A stretch of DNA of 40,617 bases, taken from Verrucomicrobiota bacterium. GTDB lineage: Bacteria > Verrucomicrobiota > Verrucomicrobiia > Chthoniobacterales > JAFAMB01. The position numbers and the translations under genes are program-made. Under the pieces are notes generated by a model, which ran no database searches, was not told where the DNA came from, and saw only the letters and a program-made list of their open reading frames with translations. The DNA lies in NCBI GenBank assembly GCA_019247695.1, contig JAFBAP010000159.1, forward strand, positions 77,265 through 117,881, written 5' to 3'. Positions 35,207 to 40,617 of this stretch are shown piece after piece. The stretch's first letter is position 1; each line of letters starts with the position of its first letter.

Positions 35207-36387
35207 CCGCACTCGCTTACCTCCAGAGCCAGCGTGAACGGATGATTGAATGCGCCTGCCGATGGTCAAGTCAGAACTCGGGCAGCCGGAACCTGGCGGG
35301 TTTGACCGTTCTCAGTGAGATGATCCTGGACGCCTTTGCCGAATTACTCAAACCCGCTTTCTCCGGGAAACGGTGGCTGGCGGCAACCGGCGAAACCCGC
35401 ACGCCGATGCTCGTCCTGCAAAAACGCCCGGAAGCACCCCGGCAGGTCTTCCTGTTCGGCCACCTCGACACGGTCTTCGGGCCGGAACACCCGTTTCAGA
35501 CGGTTACCCCGCTGGGGGAAGACCGGATTCAGGGACCGGGTTTATGCGATATGAAAGGCGGTCTGGTCGTCATGCTGCATGGCCTCGCGGCGTATGAACG
35601 TTTCGTCGAACCGAAACGGATCGGGTGGACGGTAGCCATCAACGCGGATGAAGAGCTCGGCTCACCTGCTTCTTCCGGCGAACTGCTGGAAGCCGCCCGT
35701 AACCACCATTTCGCGTTCGGCTTCGAACCGGCGCTTGCCTCCGGCGCGCTGGCTTCTCAACGCCGCGGTTCGGGGACCTTCCTTCTCCGGTTCCGCGGGC
35801 GCGCCGCCCATAGCGGCCGCAACCCGCGGGATGGCCGGAATGCCCTGGTGCCGCTGGCCCGTTTCGTGTTGCACTGCGAAGAGTTGAACGCGAAACGCGA
35901 CACCATTTTTCTCAACCCTGCGGAAGTTACCGGGGGAATCGCCACCAACATGGTGCCCGATCTGGCAACGTGCCGCATCAATGTGCGGACGTCATCGGCC
36001 GACGATGAGCGCTGGGTGCATGACGCGCTTCACGCTTTTATCGCCTCCATCCACAACGCGTCCGATTACCGGGTAGAACTTGAAGGACGGTTTACCGCCC
36101 CGCCGAAAGCCTTGACTCCCGAGACCCTGAACCTAATCGAGCTCGCCCGGCAGGCCGGCCATGAACTCGGGATCGAGATCAGCGCGGAGCCGACGGGAGG
36201 CACTTGTGACGGTAACCGCCTGGCCGCCGCAGGCGTTCCTAACCTCGACAACCTGGGTGTGCGCGGCGGTAACCTGCACAGCGCCGAAGAGTTTATCTAT
36301 GCCGCCAGCCTGCCGGAAAGAGCGCAACTCCTTTTTATCATGTTGCGCCGGATCAACGATACCGGAGGTACAGCGATCCACCAATAA
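35203..36387 (+). CDS. M20 family metallohydrolase (ArgE/DapE/CPG2-like)
   Basis: A ~395-residue zinc amidohydrolase of the M20 family. Metal and catalytic residues are visible: LFGHLDTVFG (His87, Asp89), GLCDMKGG (Asp116), INADEELGSP (Glu150, Glu151), FGFEPAL (Glu) and GNLHSAEEF (His), with the dimerisation-domain motif GRAAHSGRNP. The overall style is nearest carboxypeptidase G2/ArgE/DapE. The ATG at 35203 overlaps the astB stop, implying a linked role. I infer that it may desuccinylate succinylornithine or another N-succinyl amino acid, replacing AstC-AstD-AstE. AstE itself is an M14 enzyme and is absent. The substrate is not provable from sequence. Confidence 0.9.
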   Translation: MTALAYLQSQRERMIECACRWSSQNSGSRNLAGLTVLSEMILDAFAELLKPAFSGKRWLAATGETRTPMLVLQKRPEAPRQVFLFGHLDTVFGPEHPFQTVTPLGEDRIQGPGLCDMKGGLVVMLHGLAAYERFVEPKRIGWTVAINADEELGSPASSGELLEAARNHHFAFGFEPALASGALASQRRGSGTFLLRFRGRAAHSGRNPRDGRNALVPLARFVLHCEELNAKRDTIFLNPAEVTGGIATNMVPDLATCRINVRTSSADDERWVHDALHAFIASIHNASDYRVELEGRFTAPPKALTPETLNLIELARQAGHELGIEISAEPTGGTCDGNRLAAAGVPNLDNLGVRGGNLHSAEEFIYAASLPERAQLLFIMLRRINDTGGTAIHQ

Positions 36388-36549
36388 GATGATAATCCGC
36401 CGCGCGGGCTCAAAGAATGCCCGCACCCTACCCGGCAGTTCTTCACTTGCGGGATTTATTCTACGCCGGCCACGGCGGGCAGATGATACTCGTTTTTAAG
36501 CTGGTTCAGCAGCATTGAGGGTCCGAGGGTCAGATGGTACTTTACCGGC

Positions 36550-37176
36550 ATGCCCTCCGCGGACCTGGAACGCATCGCCGAGGAACTTAACGGGATGTTG
36601 CGCGCCGAGTCCGAGCGGCGGCAACGCTTCCGCGAGTCCCTGCAACCGGAGGACAAAGCCGAGTTCATCAACGGCGTGGCCGTATTCCATTCCCCCGCGA
36701 CGCTGCGCCATACCATCGGCCGCCAAAACCTCACGGTTATTCTGAGAAGCTGGATTATTCCCCGGCGGCTTGGAACCGTGCTCGATGAGAAGGCGCTTTG
36801 CGCTTTCCAGCGAAACGACTACGAACCCGACATCGCCTGCTTCAGCGCCGAGCAATCCGCGCAGTTCAGCCCGGACCAAAGACTTTTTCCGGTGCCGGCT
36901 CTCATTGTGGAGGTGCTCTCGCCCTCGACGGAGGCCAACGACCGGGGCGTCAAATTTGATGATTACGCCCGCAGCGGCGTGCGCGAGTACTGGTTGGTGG
37001 ACCCGCGTGCCGAAACCGTCGAAATCCATGCGGGAGCCAACGGCGCGTTCGAACGGGTGGAATCGGGCGAGACCGGGCGATTGCGGTCACGCTTCCTGGA
37101 AGGTTTAGGGGTTGACCTTCGTGCAGCCTTCAACCCCGAATCCGCGTTACGGGAGGCCGCCCGCTTTTCTTTATAG
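36550..37176 (+). CDS. Uma2 family (DUF820) putative endonuclease
   Basis: A 208-residue PD-(D/E)XK-like protein of the Uma2/DUF820 family, whose function is mostly unknown; many copies occur in cyanobacteria and related phyla. It shows EFINGVAVFHSPAT, YEPDIACF (catalytic Asp), LIVEVLSPSTEANDRGVKFDDYA (Glu-x-Leu and Lys) and GVREYWLVDP. No partner gene is present. The ATG at 36550 follows a 162-base gap after the M20 gene. Its last codons overlap the remnant of hsdR on the other strand (37171-37176), so its 3' end marks a recombination junction. Confidence 0.9.
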   Translation: MPSADLERIAEELNGMLRAESERRQRFRESLQPEDKAEFINGVAVFHSPATLRHTIGRQNLTVILRSWIIPRRLGTVLDEKALCAFQRNDYEPDIACFSAEQSAQFSPDQRLFPVPALIVEVLSPSTEANDRGVKFDDYARSGVREYWLVDPRAETVEIHAGANGAFERVESGETGRLRSRFLEGLGVDLRAAFNPESALREAARFSL

Positions 37177-37317
37177 GAAAGCGCGCAGCCAGCTTGTCAT
37201 CACGACCTCGCGGAGTTCGCGCTCGATCTGGTCGCCATACTCATAGCGATAGGGGAGCGCAAGCAGTCGCTCGATCGTCGTTTGCTCAAATTGCGACTCG
37301 ATTCCTTGGTTTGGCAT
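37171..37317 (-). pseudogene. hsdR: hsdR 5' fragment (Type I restriction R subunit, truncated)
   Basis: A 48-codon reading frame from ATG at 37317 to TAA at 37171. Its translation starts MPNQGIESQFEQTTIERLL and continues YRYEYGDQI, then ELREVVMTSWLRAFL. The arrangement (N-terminal helix, tyrosine-rich turn, VV...LRAFL) resembles the first ~50 residues of HsdR proteins, and it sits where hsdR is expected in the minus-strand order hsdM, hsdS, accessory genes. Everything after residue 48 (nuclease and helicase domains) is gone; the frame runs into the Uma2 gene's 3' end and stops. The fragment is short, so family assignment rests on position as much as on sequence. Confidence 0.6.
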
Positions 37318-37361
37318 CGCGCGATGGCTTGGGTTGTCCCTTCGGCGCCCGCTTGCATTCG

Positions 37362-38502
37362 CTAATGCGGCAGGATTTTTTCAAAGTGCACCACGTCCAT
37401 TAGCGAACGTGGCTGTCGCCCCGGGTGAACTTTTCCCGTTACCTTTACATAAGCCCCCTCAGTCATATGGACATCGTCTGCAGCGGCGTATTGATCCGCC
37501 GTAAGGCTGGTTCGCGCCTGCACCGGTTCCCCATCGCTGAGCAGCAGTGCCAAAATCACCTCGCCCGCCCGACGGGCCGTCCGGCTGCATTGCGCCGTCG
37601 AGACGCTCTACCGTACCAATAAAAGTATCTTCCTGGTGCTGCTCGGGGGAACGCAACGCTCGGCGGACCTCCTCGATGCGCGAGAAGTAATCCCACTGAA
37701 TGCGGATCCGTGCCGGCATTACCTCACCCGCCGGCAGGGGCGTTGAGATGGCCCAGGAAATGTCCACCTCCAGCGAATTCTTCAAGGCATCATCCTCGAA
37801 GCGGGTCAACGCCTCGCACAAATTAGAGGAAATGACGGGAGTGGCCATTTTCTGCACATTTTCGATAAGTTGCGACAGCGTGTCGGCTTCAATGGCCGTC
37901 ACCAACTCGTGCAATGCCCGCTTCACTGTGAGCATCGTTCGACGCACGAACGGTGCGTCCACCTCTCCCGGAAAAAGCGCCGCCTGCACGTCAAGCGCGC
38001 GGACTGGACACGAGACCTTCACAACAAAGCTTCCCGGCTCTGTATGGCGAAATTGCGATGCTTCGATGAGCTGTTGCGCTTCGCTTCGGCTGAGCCGAGG
38101 GTGATGGCTCTGCGGTTTCAGCACCGTGCAGGATGCCGCCAGCAGGAGCTGCTGGGCACCGCTGACAACACTGCCGACGAACGCCAGTGGCAATGCCCCT
38201 CCGACGTCGCACGAGGTATCAATACGAAAGCGAAGTGTGTCATCGTTCACCTCCTGTAAAGCGCTCAAAACGTCGGGAAGAGGGCGCCCTTCCAGCAGCG
38301 CGAGCTTTTCCGCCGCCAGCATCACGGCTTCGGTGTAGTCCGGCGCCGTCGTATCGATCGGGAAGACCAATTGCCGTCGGTCGAATTTGGGATGACTTAG
38401 CACAAAGAGCCGGTCCCTCAGCCCGTCAGGGACCAGTACCCAGCCGCGCGATTTTGCATAATCACGCAGATCGGTAGGGGCCACGAGGAAAGCGTTGGTC
38501 AT
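37362..38502 (-). pseudogene. Unknown accessory protein of Type I R-M operon, frameshifted near C-terminus
   Basis: From ATG 38502 the frame encodes about 313 plausible residues (start MTNAFLVAPTDLRDY; YAKSRGWVLVPDGL; FIGTVERLDG at the end), then turns into Arg/Gly-rich junk. The other frame picks up at about 37585 and continues RAGEVILALLLSDGE, YAAADDVHMTEGAYVKVTG, MDVVHFEKILPH to a stop at 37362. Joining them restores a ~380-residue protein whose tail (FIGTVERL...VTGKVHPGRQ...VVHFEKI) looks like an OB-fold-type beta barrel. I know of no family name. The one-base slip is in a GC-rich stretch near 37565-37590. The gene overlaps the upstream DUF4365 frame by ATGA. Confidence 0.7.
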
Positions 38503-39039
38503 GGCGCAACGTAGGTCGGAAGATCGCGCCGCGACAGCCGCGACGCCAGCGCCCTCAGCTCGGTCGGGCTAAAAGGCTTGCGCTTTCGGTATATACACTG
38601 TAGCGCCGCTCCGATTGCTTGTGGCTGCCGCTCCACGCAGGCTCACCCAATAGCCGCAGCGCCTCAGCGCGAGTTCGTCTTCTGTGTGCGAGATCCATTC
38701 TGCAGCATCTGGCGGAAGAAAGAGGACGACAAGAATACGAGCCACGTCTACGGTCGCTGCTCGGAGGTCGTCGTATCGGTTGACTCCGGCAAGAAAATAA
38801 GAACGATGCATTCCGTTGTCCCCGGGTGGCTGGATCGTCGCCTTCAACTGGATTTTGAGGTCTACCTCCGTAAGGTAACCGCCGTTATCGAACGGCGCCC
38901 ACGCTGTTACCCGCGCGTCCACTCCATTGTTATCCTCGTGGCGGCCGCTCACGGAGCATGCCATGCCAGCTTTCGCCGCAATCGCGTGAACGTAAGCGTA
39001 ACTGAGTTCCGACTCAATATCCGGAAGAGAGAGCGTGCA
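38499..39039 (-). pseudogene. DUF4365 protein, frameshifted
   Basis: DUF4365 (PF14280) proteins are nuclease-like accessory proteins of unknown role, often found in defence loci. The translation reads PDIESELSYAYVHAIAAKAG, then DNNGVDARV, VDLKIQLKAT, SYFLAGVNRYDDLR, RILVVLFLPPDAAEWI and CGYWVSLRGA, then TVYIPKAQAF, which fits the family order. Two lesions: no start codon in frame, because the frame opens after a TAG just upstream and an ATG about 15 codons before the core is out of frame; and TTTT near 38571-38576 creates a TAG after QAF. Removing one T gives FSPTELRALASRLSRRDL and a stop overlapping the next ATG. An internal ATG at 38964 would lack the conserved N-terminus. Confidence 0.8.
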
Positions 39040-39105
39040 TCGTTCAGCGTCGCCTGTAGGCTACAGACTTCACGCGTTGTTGACCAACTTAAACTCAGAC
39101 CATTG

Positions 39106-39250
39106 TCATGCCTTAGCCTCAATCATCTGCTCCGCGTTGCGCACCCGCAGATCGCCCGACAGCAGTTTCGGCAGCAGCATGCTACGTAGGGCGGCGAGGG
39201 TGTGGGATTCAGCTTGATTACAGATAATCTGCTGGTACCATGGCGATATC
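39106..39250 (-). pseudogene. hsdS: hsdS C-terminal remnant (Type I specificity subunit)
   Basis: In-frame translation from about 39250 to the TGA at 39106 gives EALAVFTELISPWYQQI, then AESHTLAALRSMLLPKLLSG and DLRVRNAEQMIEAKA. ES.TLAALR..LLPKLLSG is the diagnostic C-terminus of HsdS proteins. Both target-recognition domains and the first conserved region are missing; the fragment is joined directly to the decayed hsdM. The specificity of the original system cannot be recovered. Confidence 0.85.
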
Positions 39251-40103
39251 AGTTCGGTGAATACCGCGAGCGCCTCAGCAGAAGGACAAACGCACGTGAA
39301 GCGATCGTGTTCGCAAAGAGCTGGCCGGTAAGTGTAACGACGCGATCGACGAAGTCATCTTCCACAGCGCCTTTTGGACGACGAGCTGCGCCGTCTCGGA
39401 GTTCGACAGCTCGCCTGTCGCCACGGCGACGCCCGCTGTGCCACCCGGCTCGCGCGCGCCCGGCGCTTTTAGATACGCGAGGAAGTGGAGCATCTGCATC
39501 GTGTTCGCATTGCGTGGTGCGAGCGGGAGAGGGTGATAGAGGACGGGGTGAAGTATTCGCCGCCACGCTTCCCCTCTGACGAGGCAAACCGCCAGCCTCG
39601 AAACGAAAGATGTCCTTTGAGAAAAGGTCCACCAGACCGGCAATATTTTGCTAATCTAGATTTGACCCTGCGTAGATCACCGGAAGCAGGCATCTGAGTT
39701 TCGGAAAGCTGGCCTCGAGCAGATCGAGAATGTTGTCAAGGCGAACCTTTACGTCGTCCGTGCGGGCGATCTTCACTATGTTTTCCCAGCGCGCCTCCTC
39801 TGGGACGAGGAAAACCTGTTTGCTCAGGTAAAGATCAGCGTCCTCGCGGAGGGAGAGCATGAGCTGCTTGTCAGTGGTGTGCAGGTCGCTTGGCGGATCG
39901 ACGATCTCGGCGTCGATCTCCGAGCGACGCTCCTCGTAACGTAGCGAGTGGAAGCGTAGGAAGATGAACGGCAGCACGTCGCGTTTGTAATCGGCCGGCG
40001 TAATGTTGCAGCGCAATGCAATTGCCGCATTCCACAACTCCTTGAGCAGGTCGGCGTGGACGTTGCTGCCGTTCTTCTTATAGGTCGTCTTGCCTTTCTT
40101 CAT
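39249..40103 (-). pseudogene. hsdM: hsdM pseudogene (Type I R-M adenine methyltransferase)
   Basis: The first 150 codons (40103-39651) are intact and match the HsdM N-terminal domain: ELWNAAIALRCNITPADYK, FLVPEEARWENIV, FPKLRCLLPVIYAGSNLD. A TAG at 39651-39653 interrupts just after this; the frame then goes on QNIAGLVDLFSKD. A one-base loss in a T-run shifts the next part, FASSEGKRGGEYFTPSSI. Then about 100 residues are missing, including the SAM-binding DPCCGSGG and catalytic NPPF motifs. The frame resumes at NANTMQMLHFLAYLKAPGA and GGTAGVAVATGELSNSETAQL, shifts again near 39365, and ends VEDDFVDRVVTLTGQLFANT. No active methyltransferase can be made. Confidence 0.9.
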
Positions 40104-40617
40104 CAGTCCATTGGAGAGATTGGACGAAACCAGTGCGGCTGAGGTGGCACGGTGCCGACAAAAATATTGCTGTCCGATGTAAAAGCTCGGCGCTTCTCAT
40201 TCACACGGAAGCGCCCGCCCCCTGGGAGCCACTGCCGGAGTGAAGGCAAGAAAGCGGCCAACGCTCCGGAAACGGGTGGATAAGGCGATATGCCTGCGTG
40301 CTGTGAGAGCTGGACCAGGGCTCCATTCACCTCCATCCGGATCTCTTCGAGATTGTGTGATGGCGAGCGCGGCGCATTGGGCGCGGCAAACGTGTAGGAT
40401 GAACCGCAGAGCGGTCCTGTCCACTGCGAACCAGGATGCGGCGTGGCGCTTGGATCGAGTGTTCCACGCAGGACCTTGATCTACTCCCACCAAACGTTCC
40501 AATGGTGGGTGGAGGCTTTTAGAAAGGAGCCACGCGGCATTAGCAACGCTGCTGGACTCAGCTAGCGGCTCCGAACCCAACACCCAACCCCTCCGACCTC
40601 TGAGCTAAGAGGCAGCG
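40104..40617. other. Non-coding or decayed flank upstream of hsdM
   Basis: About 510 bases with no recognisable gene on either strand; open frames here have no protein-like features. An AT-richer patch at 40155-40180 could hold the old hsdM promoter. A hairpin CCCACCA/TGGTGGG with a 10-base loop lies at 40486-40509. The last ~25 bases resemble a tRNA D-arm in reverse, but no complete tRNA can be folded. Confidence 0.5.

Follow-up and report, generated by a model that had tools for sequence, protein, structure and literature searches.

The stretch of DNA analysed here (the window; 40,617 nucleotides, GenBank assembly GCA_019247695.1, contig JAFBAP010000159.1, positions 77,265 to 117,881) comes from a Verrucomicrobiota bacterium whose 5.19 Mb genome is represented by a 96.7%-complete assembly of 191 contigs, and it forms the right end of contig C159. 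Close to that end lies what is most probably (about 0.85, covering both its identity and its dead state) a Type I restriction-modification (R-M) operon decayed beyond function, hsdM-hsdS-[PDC-M02A-PDC-M02B]-hsdR, which carries a two-gene defence candidate, PDC-M02, between hsdS and hsdR. In Type I enzymes, HsdM and HsdS methylate DNA, and HsdR cuts DNA that is unmethylated. On the minus strand, from 40103 down to 37171, the remains follow one another as pieces of hsdM, the C-terminus of hsdS, a DUF4365 gene, a 347-codon open reading frame (ORF) and the beginning of hsdR. An earlier note, made from the letters alone, had named these same pieces, and Pfam, PADLOC, tblastn and frame-by-frame reading recovered every one of them in the order and on the strand that it gave. 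The gene order, the identities of the genes, their lesions and the absence of the locus from a sister species are matters of direct observation.

Remnants of the Type I genes

Frame-aware searches match HsdM, HsdS and DUF4365 clearly and HsdR weakly. The N-terminal domain of HsdM is encoded by 150 codons at 39654..40103 (minus strand; Pfam HsdM_N, 9.3e-17), covering residues ~1-155 when read-through is included, since this piece is closed by an in-frame TAG at 39651-39653 and homology to intact HsdM proteins continues in frame past the stop to 39618 (tblastn, E down to 3e-27). About 24 hsdM codons are then squeezed into 26 bases, after which a second frame (39532..39591, minus) holds 20 residues, RFASSEGKRGGEYFTPSSIT, which carry FASSEGKRGGEYFTP and are matched both by a second tblastn segment of 45-75% identity and by a PADLOC MTase model (9.6e-5). 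Between 39532 and 39511 some 115 codons have been deleted, including those for the S-adenosylmethionine (SAM)-binding motif and NPPF. The third piece, in a third frame at 39365..39511 (minus), reads NANTMQMLHF...GELSNSETAQ (NANTMQMLHFLAYLK..GELSNSE); it is recognized by tblastn (E 0.003-0.006) and by three-frame reading, and no hidden Markov model matches it. After a further change of frame the fourth piece (39306..39365, minus), VEDDFVDRVVTLTGQLFANT, was identified by eye in the three-frame translation through the HsdM motif PGQLFANT, and is unscored. The N-terminal domain, amber stop and frameshifted middle that the earlier note had described are thus all present.

The fourth hsdM piece is fused directly to hsdS at 39306, the remainder of hsdM and most of hsdS having been deleted. 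What is left of hsdS are its C-terminal ~62 codons (39109..39306, minus; PADLOC Specificity_I, 1e-17; tblastn, 3e-12), which align with positions 383-442 of 446 and hence up to the end of the profile; both target-recognition domains are missing from the window. The hsdR remnant consists of the first 48 codons, at 37174..37317 (minus), followed by a stop at 37171-37173. Its match to PADLOC REase_I (0.0034) is collinear with the N-terminus of the profile (positions 7-47 of 1029) and is weak on its own. A search of 387 genomes of the phylum gave matches to this piece in 11 others at E<=0.05; six of the 11 also have an hsdM match on the contig concerned, at a distance of 3.7-13.4 kb, and in all four loci that were read the match to the piece stands at the beginning of a long ORF. 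Because of this co-location and these ORF starts, the assignment of the 48 residues to the beginning of hsdR, weak when the sequence is taken in isolation, is convincing through context. A tblastn search of plasmids with the piece gave nothing credible, and a phmmer search of the PDB returned matches at chance level only.

Compared with a working HsdMSR system, the window retains an HsdM_N domain and lacks the methyltransferase core (the complete N6-adenine methyltransferase core is absent, and a search with PF02384 gave no match in the window), both HsdS target-recognition domains and the nuclease and motor domains of HsdR, HSDR_N being found in this genome only on contig C63. These losses bear on the idea of a minimal or split enzyme put together from separately expressed fragments, or of a PDC-M02 system that makes use of the HsdM_N piece. 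Plausible start codons do exist for HsdM_N and for the 347-codon ORF, but with the SAM-binding and NPPF motifs, the target-recognition domains and the HsdR motor gone, and with full-length genes in intact relatives, such an arrangement is scarcely credible.

The embedded PDC-M02 pair

The earlier note had taken the locus for a five-gene Type I operon with an unknown protein as its fourth gene. Three of the five genes, hsdM, hsdS and hsdR, are indeed those of a Type I system, while the third and fourth form a separate pair: the DUF4365 gene is PDC-M02A, and the 347-codon ORF is its partner, PDC-M02B. The two are adjacent, in the order of the family, and each matches its own PADLOC model (6.6e-63 and 4.2e-122, respectively). 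Each also keeps to one frame for most of its length, so that for these two genes the earlier note's description "readable only across frames" goes too far.

Their frames are nevertheless not intact. The main frame of the PDC-M02A pseudogene, which encodes a predicted DREN-type nuclease, occupies 38572..39036 (minus; PADLOC profile positions 4-154 of 172; Pfam DUF4365, 4.2e-11, at 38569-38964) and retains the catalytic D and QxK. Its start frame is lost, the likely ATG just upstream being out of frame, and its C-terminal 24 codons lie in another frame at 38502..38573 (minus), where M02A of a Reyranella locus (L006) matches by tblastn with 62.5% identity (4.9e-7). The ATGA in which the end of M02A overlaps the start of M02B, a coupling of the two that relatives share, is preserved. 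Residues 1-313 of M02B are encoded in a single frame at 37564..38502 (minus; 60% identity to L005); a frameshift follows at a repeated GGGC, and the C-terminal OB-fold part continues in another frame at 37374..37574 (minus; profile positions 306-374 of 377, 1.9e-23). Set against the PADLOC definition of PDC-M02, both families are therefore present in order, with their reading frames interrupted at both ends of M02A and within M02B.

Whether this pair shares the fate of its neighbours must be weighed, since only the R-M genes could be dead, with M02A and M02B functional and the three indels being assembly or sequencing errors near the contig end, or bypassed by frameshifting. Neither gene has a stop codon over 1.4 kb of main frame, the catalytic residues and the ATGA overlap are kept, and the pair departs from intact relatives just by these three indels, all of them small, whereas most of the length of hsdM, hsdS and hsdR is gone. 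On the other hand, the three indels are independent events within 1.7 kb, one at the repeated GGGC, one in a CT run and none in a long homopolymer, and the adjoining 36 kb, the remainder of the window, reads as long ORFs. The wreck holds nine separate lesions within 3 kb, and lesions per base are not clearly different between its parts, with five in ~1.0 kb of hsdM-hsdS and three in ~1.7 kb of the M02 part. As this difference is suggestive and not significant, no claim is made that PDC-M02 outlived the R-M genes, and survival of the pair is considered unlikely. Programmed frameshifting in M02A was also rejected as an explanation, since the gene is broken at different places in the window and in L005.

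Comparison with an intact operon

An intact counterpart, of the kind that the earlier note had proposed for comparison, is found in Verrucomicrobia bacterium UBA1319 (L007), where hsdM, hsdS, M02A, M02B and hsdR follow in the same order and encode 563, 430, 180, 378 and 1101 amino acids, respectively. The best PADLOC models for its HsdS and HsdR are also those for the fragments in the window, and M02A and M02B are 69% and 54% identical over the parts compared. All five genes are intact there, and all five are broken in the window, three of them cut to short pieces. The HsdM proteins of the two loci share only 33% identity, and the R-M part of the window is therefore of a different lineage. In intact relatives the operon would provide two layers of defence, the Type I enzyme and, between hsdS and hsdR, PDC-M02. 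Since every gene in the window is damaged, through a nonsense change, frameshifts, multi-codon deletions and an hsdR cut after 48 codons, neither layer should work here.

The position of the pair has a precedent in the RRDM island of E. coli, where DarTG2, embedded between hsdS and hsdR, has been shown to work (PMC12255303). DarTG2 is an unrelated two-gene defence system, a toxin-antitoxin of another family, that occupies the same place in the operon. "Guilt by embedding" was also the criterion that defined PDCs as a class (PMC12255303, PMC12988326).

The species-specific segment and the second Type I locus

The right end of the window is the end of the contig, and its last 147 bases (window 40471-40617) are repeated exactly, as reverse complement, at one end of contig C89; beyond them C89 carries a SufE-like gene and a gene for a sulfurtransferase (named from their translations). 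In a sister species (G001), the SufE-like gene and an M20 peptidase gene lie ~180 bases apart and encode proteins 92% and 87% identical to those of the host. Nucleotide homology to this region (G001:C83, blastn) ends at window position 36359 and restarts in C89 ~13 bases beyond the window end. The join of C159 to C89 is right, because the gene that follows on C89 is the one which, in the sister species, adjoins the gene for the M20 peptidase. The ~4.3 kb between the M20-type peptidase gene and the SufE-like gene (36360..40617 and ~13 bases further), comprising the wreck and a Uma2 gene, are species-specific, as the sister species has the flanking genes as direct neighbours and lacks the whole segment; with two genomes compared, this may reflect gain here or loss there. 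No direct repeats of at least 8 bases were found at the two junctions in the short stretches compared.

The same data bear on the suggestion that the whole wreck is an artefact, a chimera or a low-quality contig end, and that the living genome holds an intact operon. The window does stop at a contig end whose terminal bases recur at the end of another contig, and a second hsdM of the assembly is also broken. However, the continuation in C89 fits the gene order of the sister species, multi-codon deletions and an hsdM-hsdS fusion are unlike errors of the indel type, and the other genes of the window are long ORFs, which together make an artefact very improbable and leave a genuinely decayed operon as the preferred explanation.

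The Uma2-family gene of the segment (36550..37176, plus strand; Pfam Uma2, 4.6e-31) is intact, does not belong to the operon, is absent from the site in the sister species, and converges on the hsdR remnant.

The earlier note had concluded that a Type I system was formerly present in the host and was then lost. A nonsense change, several frameshifts and large deletions have indeed ruined the operon in the window, but a second Type I locus persists on contig C63 (C63:24206-26552; L004:9207-11553), in which hsdM is split between two overlapping frames and has as neighbours an AlbA-like gene, a short hsdS and a full-length hsdR. Nowhere in the assembly was an HsdM methyltransferase domain found intact.

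Relatives of the PDC-M02 pair

In nearly all relatives M02A precedes M02B, typically with a 4-base gene overlap, and in most of them no R-M genes were seen next to the pair. The pair is found on chromosomes and also on plasmids of Phaeobacter, Gluconobacter and Entomospira. Because R-M genes were not seen alongside in most relatives, PDC-M02 is judged to be an independent, separately mobile two-gene defence candidate that is sometimes embedded in R-M operons. Three further pairs (L045, L046 and L047) are on viral or prophage contigs, that of L045 directly after an integrase-like gene. A search for M02B in phage records gave no match. In Reyranella (L006:5179-8676), the pair stands just downstream of a gene for a Type IIG restriction enzyme-methyltransferase, with one 217-residue ORF between them.

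M02A is broken or absent beside an intact M02B in four of ~28 distinct loci, and the converse was seen in none of them; as most of these loci were found with M02B as the query, the count of M02A losses is biased. In L005:9466-9974 and L011:1758-2243, M02A is frameshifted at positions that differ from those in the window; in L057:4929-5682 an insertion of ~0.75 kb with IS1-like transposase ORFs (read from the ORFs) splits it, M02A being uninterrupted in the close relative L053; and in L024 it is absent. It is suggestive only that M02A tends to be lost before M02B, as would be expected if M02A were costly to the cell.

Predicted structures and a possible mechanism

AlphaFold models were built from intact relatives. 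In that of M02A, from L007 (predicted local distance difference test, pLDDT, 85), the top structural matches are the DREN chains of SPARDA (Z 12.2, 140 aligned residues, root-mean-square deviation 3.8), followed by Holliday-junction resolvases. The residues D42, Q65 and K67 are invariant in 14 sequences and correspond by order, spacing and fold to D41, Q60 and K62 of NbaSPARDA DREN. The latter are the catalytic residues of a collateral nuclease that is switched on by tetramerisation (PMC12205087), and non-specific degradation of DNA is known for a related DUF4365-APAZ complex (PMC10810196). Fold and residues thus support the prediction that M02A is a stand-alone DREN-type PD-(D/E)XK nuclease. 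In comparison with SPARDA, which consists of a short Argonaute and a DREN-APAZ protein, M02A shares the DREN fold and the catalytic D, Q and K, which the window keeps, yet it has no APAZ, its ~180 amino acids being all taken up by DREN, and its partner M02B carries an OB-fold and has no sequence match to Argonaute. A sequence search of the PDB with the M02A and M02B profiles found no relative.

The model of M02B (pLDDT 86) has a C-terminal OB-fold at residues ~287-378, with Z of 7-10 to SSB, PriB, RPA and SilF. A Foldseek search against the PDB gave nothing at E<=0.001; its list was filled by OB-folds, which dominated the search, and the N-terminal ~285 residues received no assignment. Over its full length M02B matches a phage DUF6575 protein in structure (Foldseek E 2.4e-7), with a TM-score of only 0.31 and no sequence match; one DUF6575 protein is a validated phage defence in E. 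coli (PMC9519451).

These models are compatible with a mechanism in which the nuclease M02A is translationally coupled to M02B, whose OB-fold and N-terminal domain would sense a signal of infection, probably nucleic acid, and which would either hold M02A off or assemble it. That PDC-M02 is such a gated nuclease, with putative protection against phages, is a proposal drawn from predicted folds for which the odds are somewhat below even. The broader view is offered more tentatively: PDC-M02 may parallel SPARDA without an Argonaute, with a sensor of a new type (the alpha/beta domain and OB-fold of M02B) gating a free DREN nuclease, and it may serve by itself on mobile elements and as a back-up where it is embedded in a Type I R-M operon.

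Several points weigh against the overall interpretation. The assembly is fragmented, the locus stands where a contig ends, and assembly errors could in principle account for the three indels of M02A and M02B, which would leave PDC-M02 alive; the sequence-based assignment of hsdR rests on 48 residues. The proposed mechanism is built on predicted folds, a literature search for PDC-M02 by name found no experiment, and OB-folds also bind proteins, metals and sugars, the best match, SilF, binding metal, so that nucleic-acid sensing by M02B is putative.

Implications

The wreck in itself is ordinary, defence islands being often gained and lost, and an annotation of single ORFs would overlook several related gene remnants, as well as the fact that the site is empty in the sister species. 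The value of the locus is that it links the uncharacterised PDC-M02 to a concrete hypothesis, in which M02A would be a DREN-type nuclease and M02B, with its OB-fold, a candidate sensor, and which is directly testable since intact pairs are available on plasmids and prophages.

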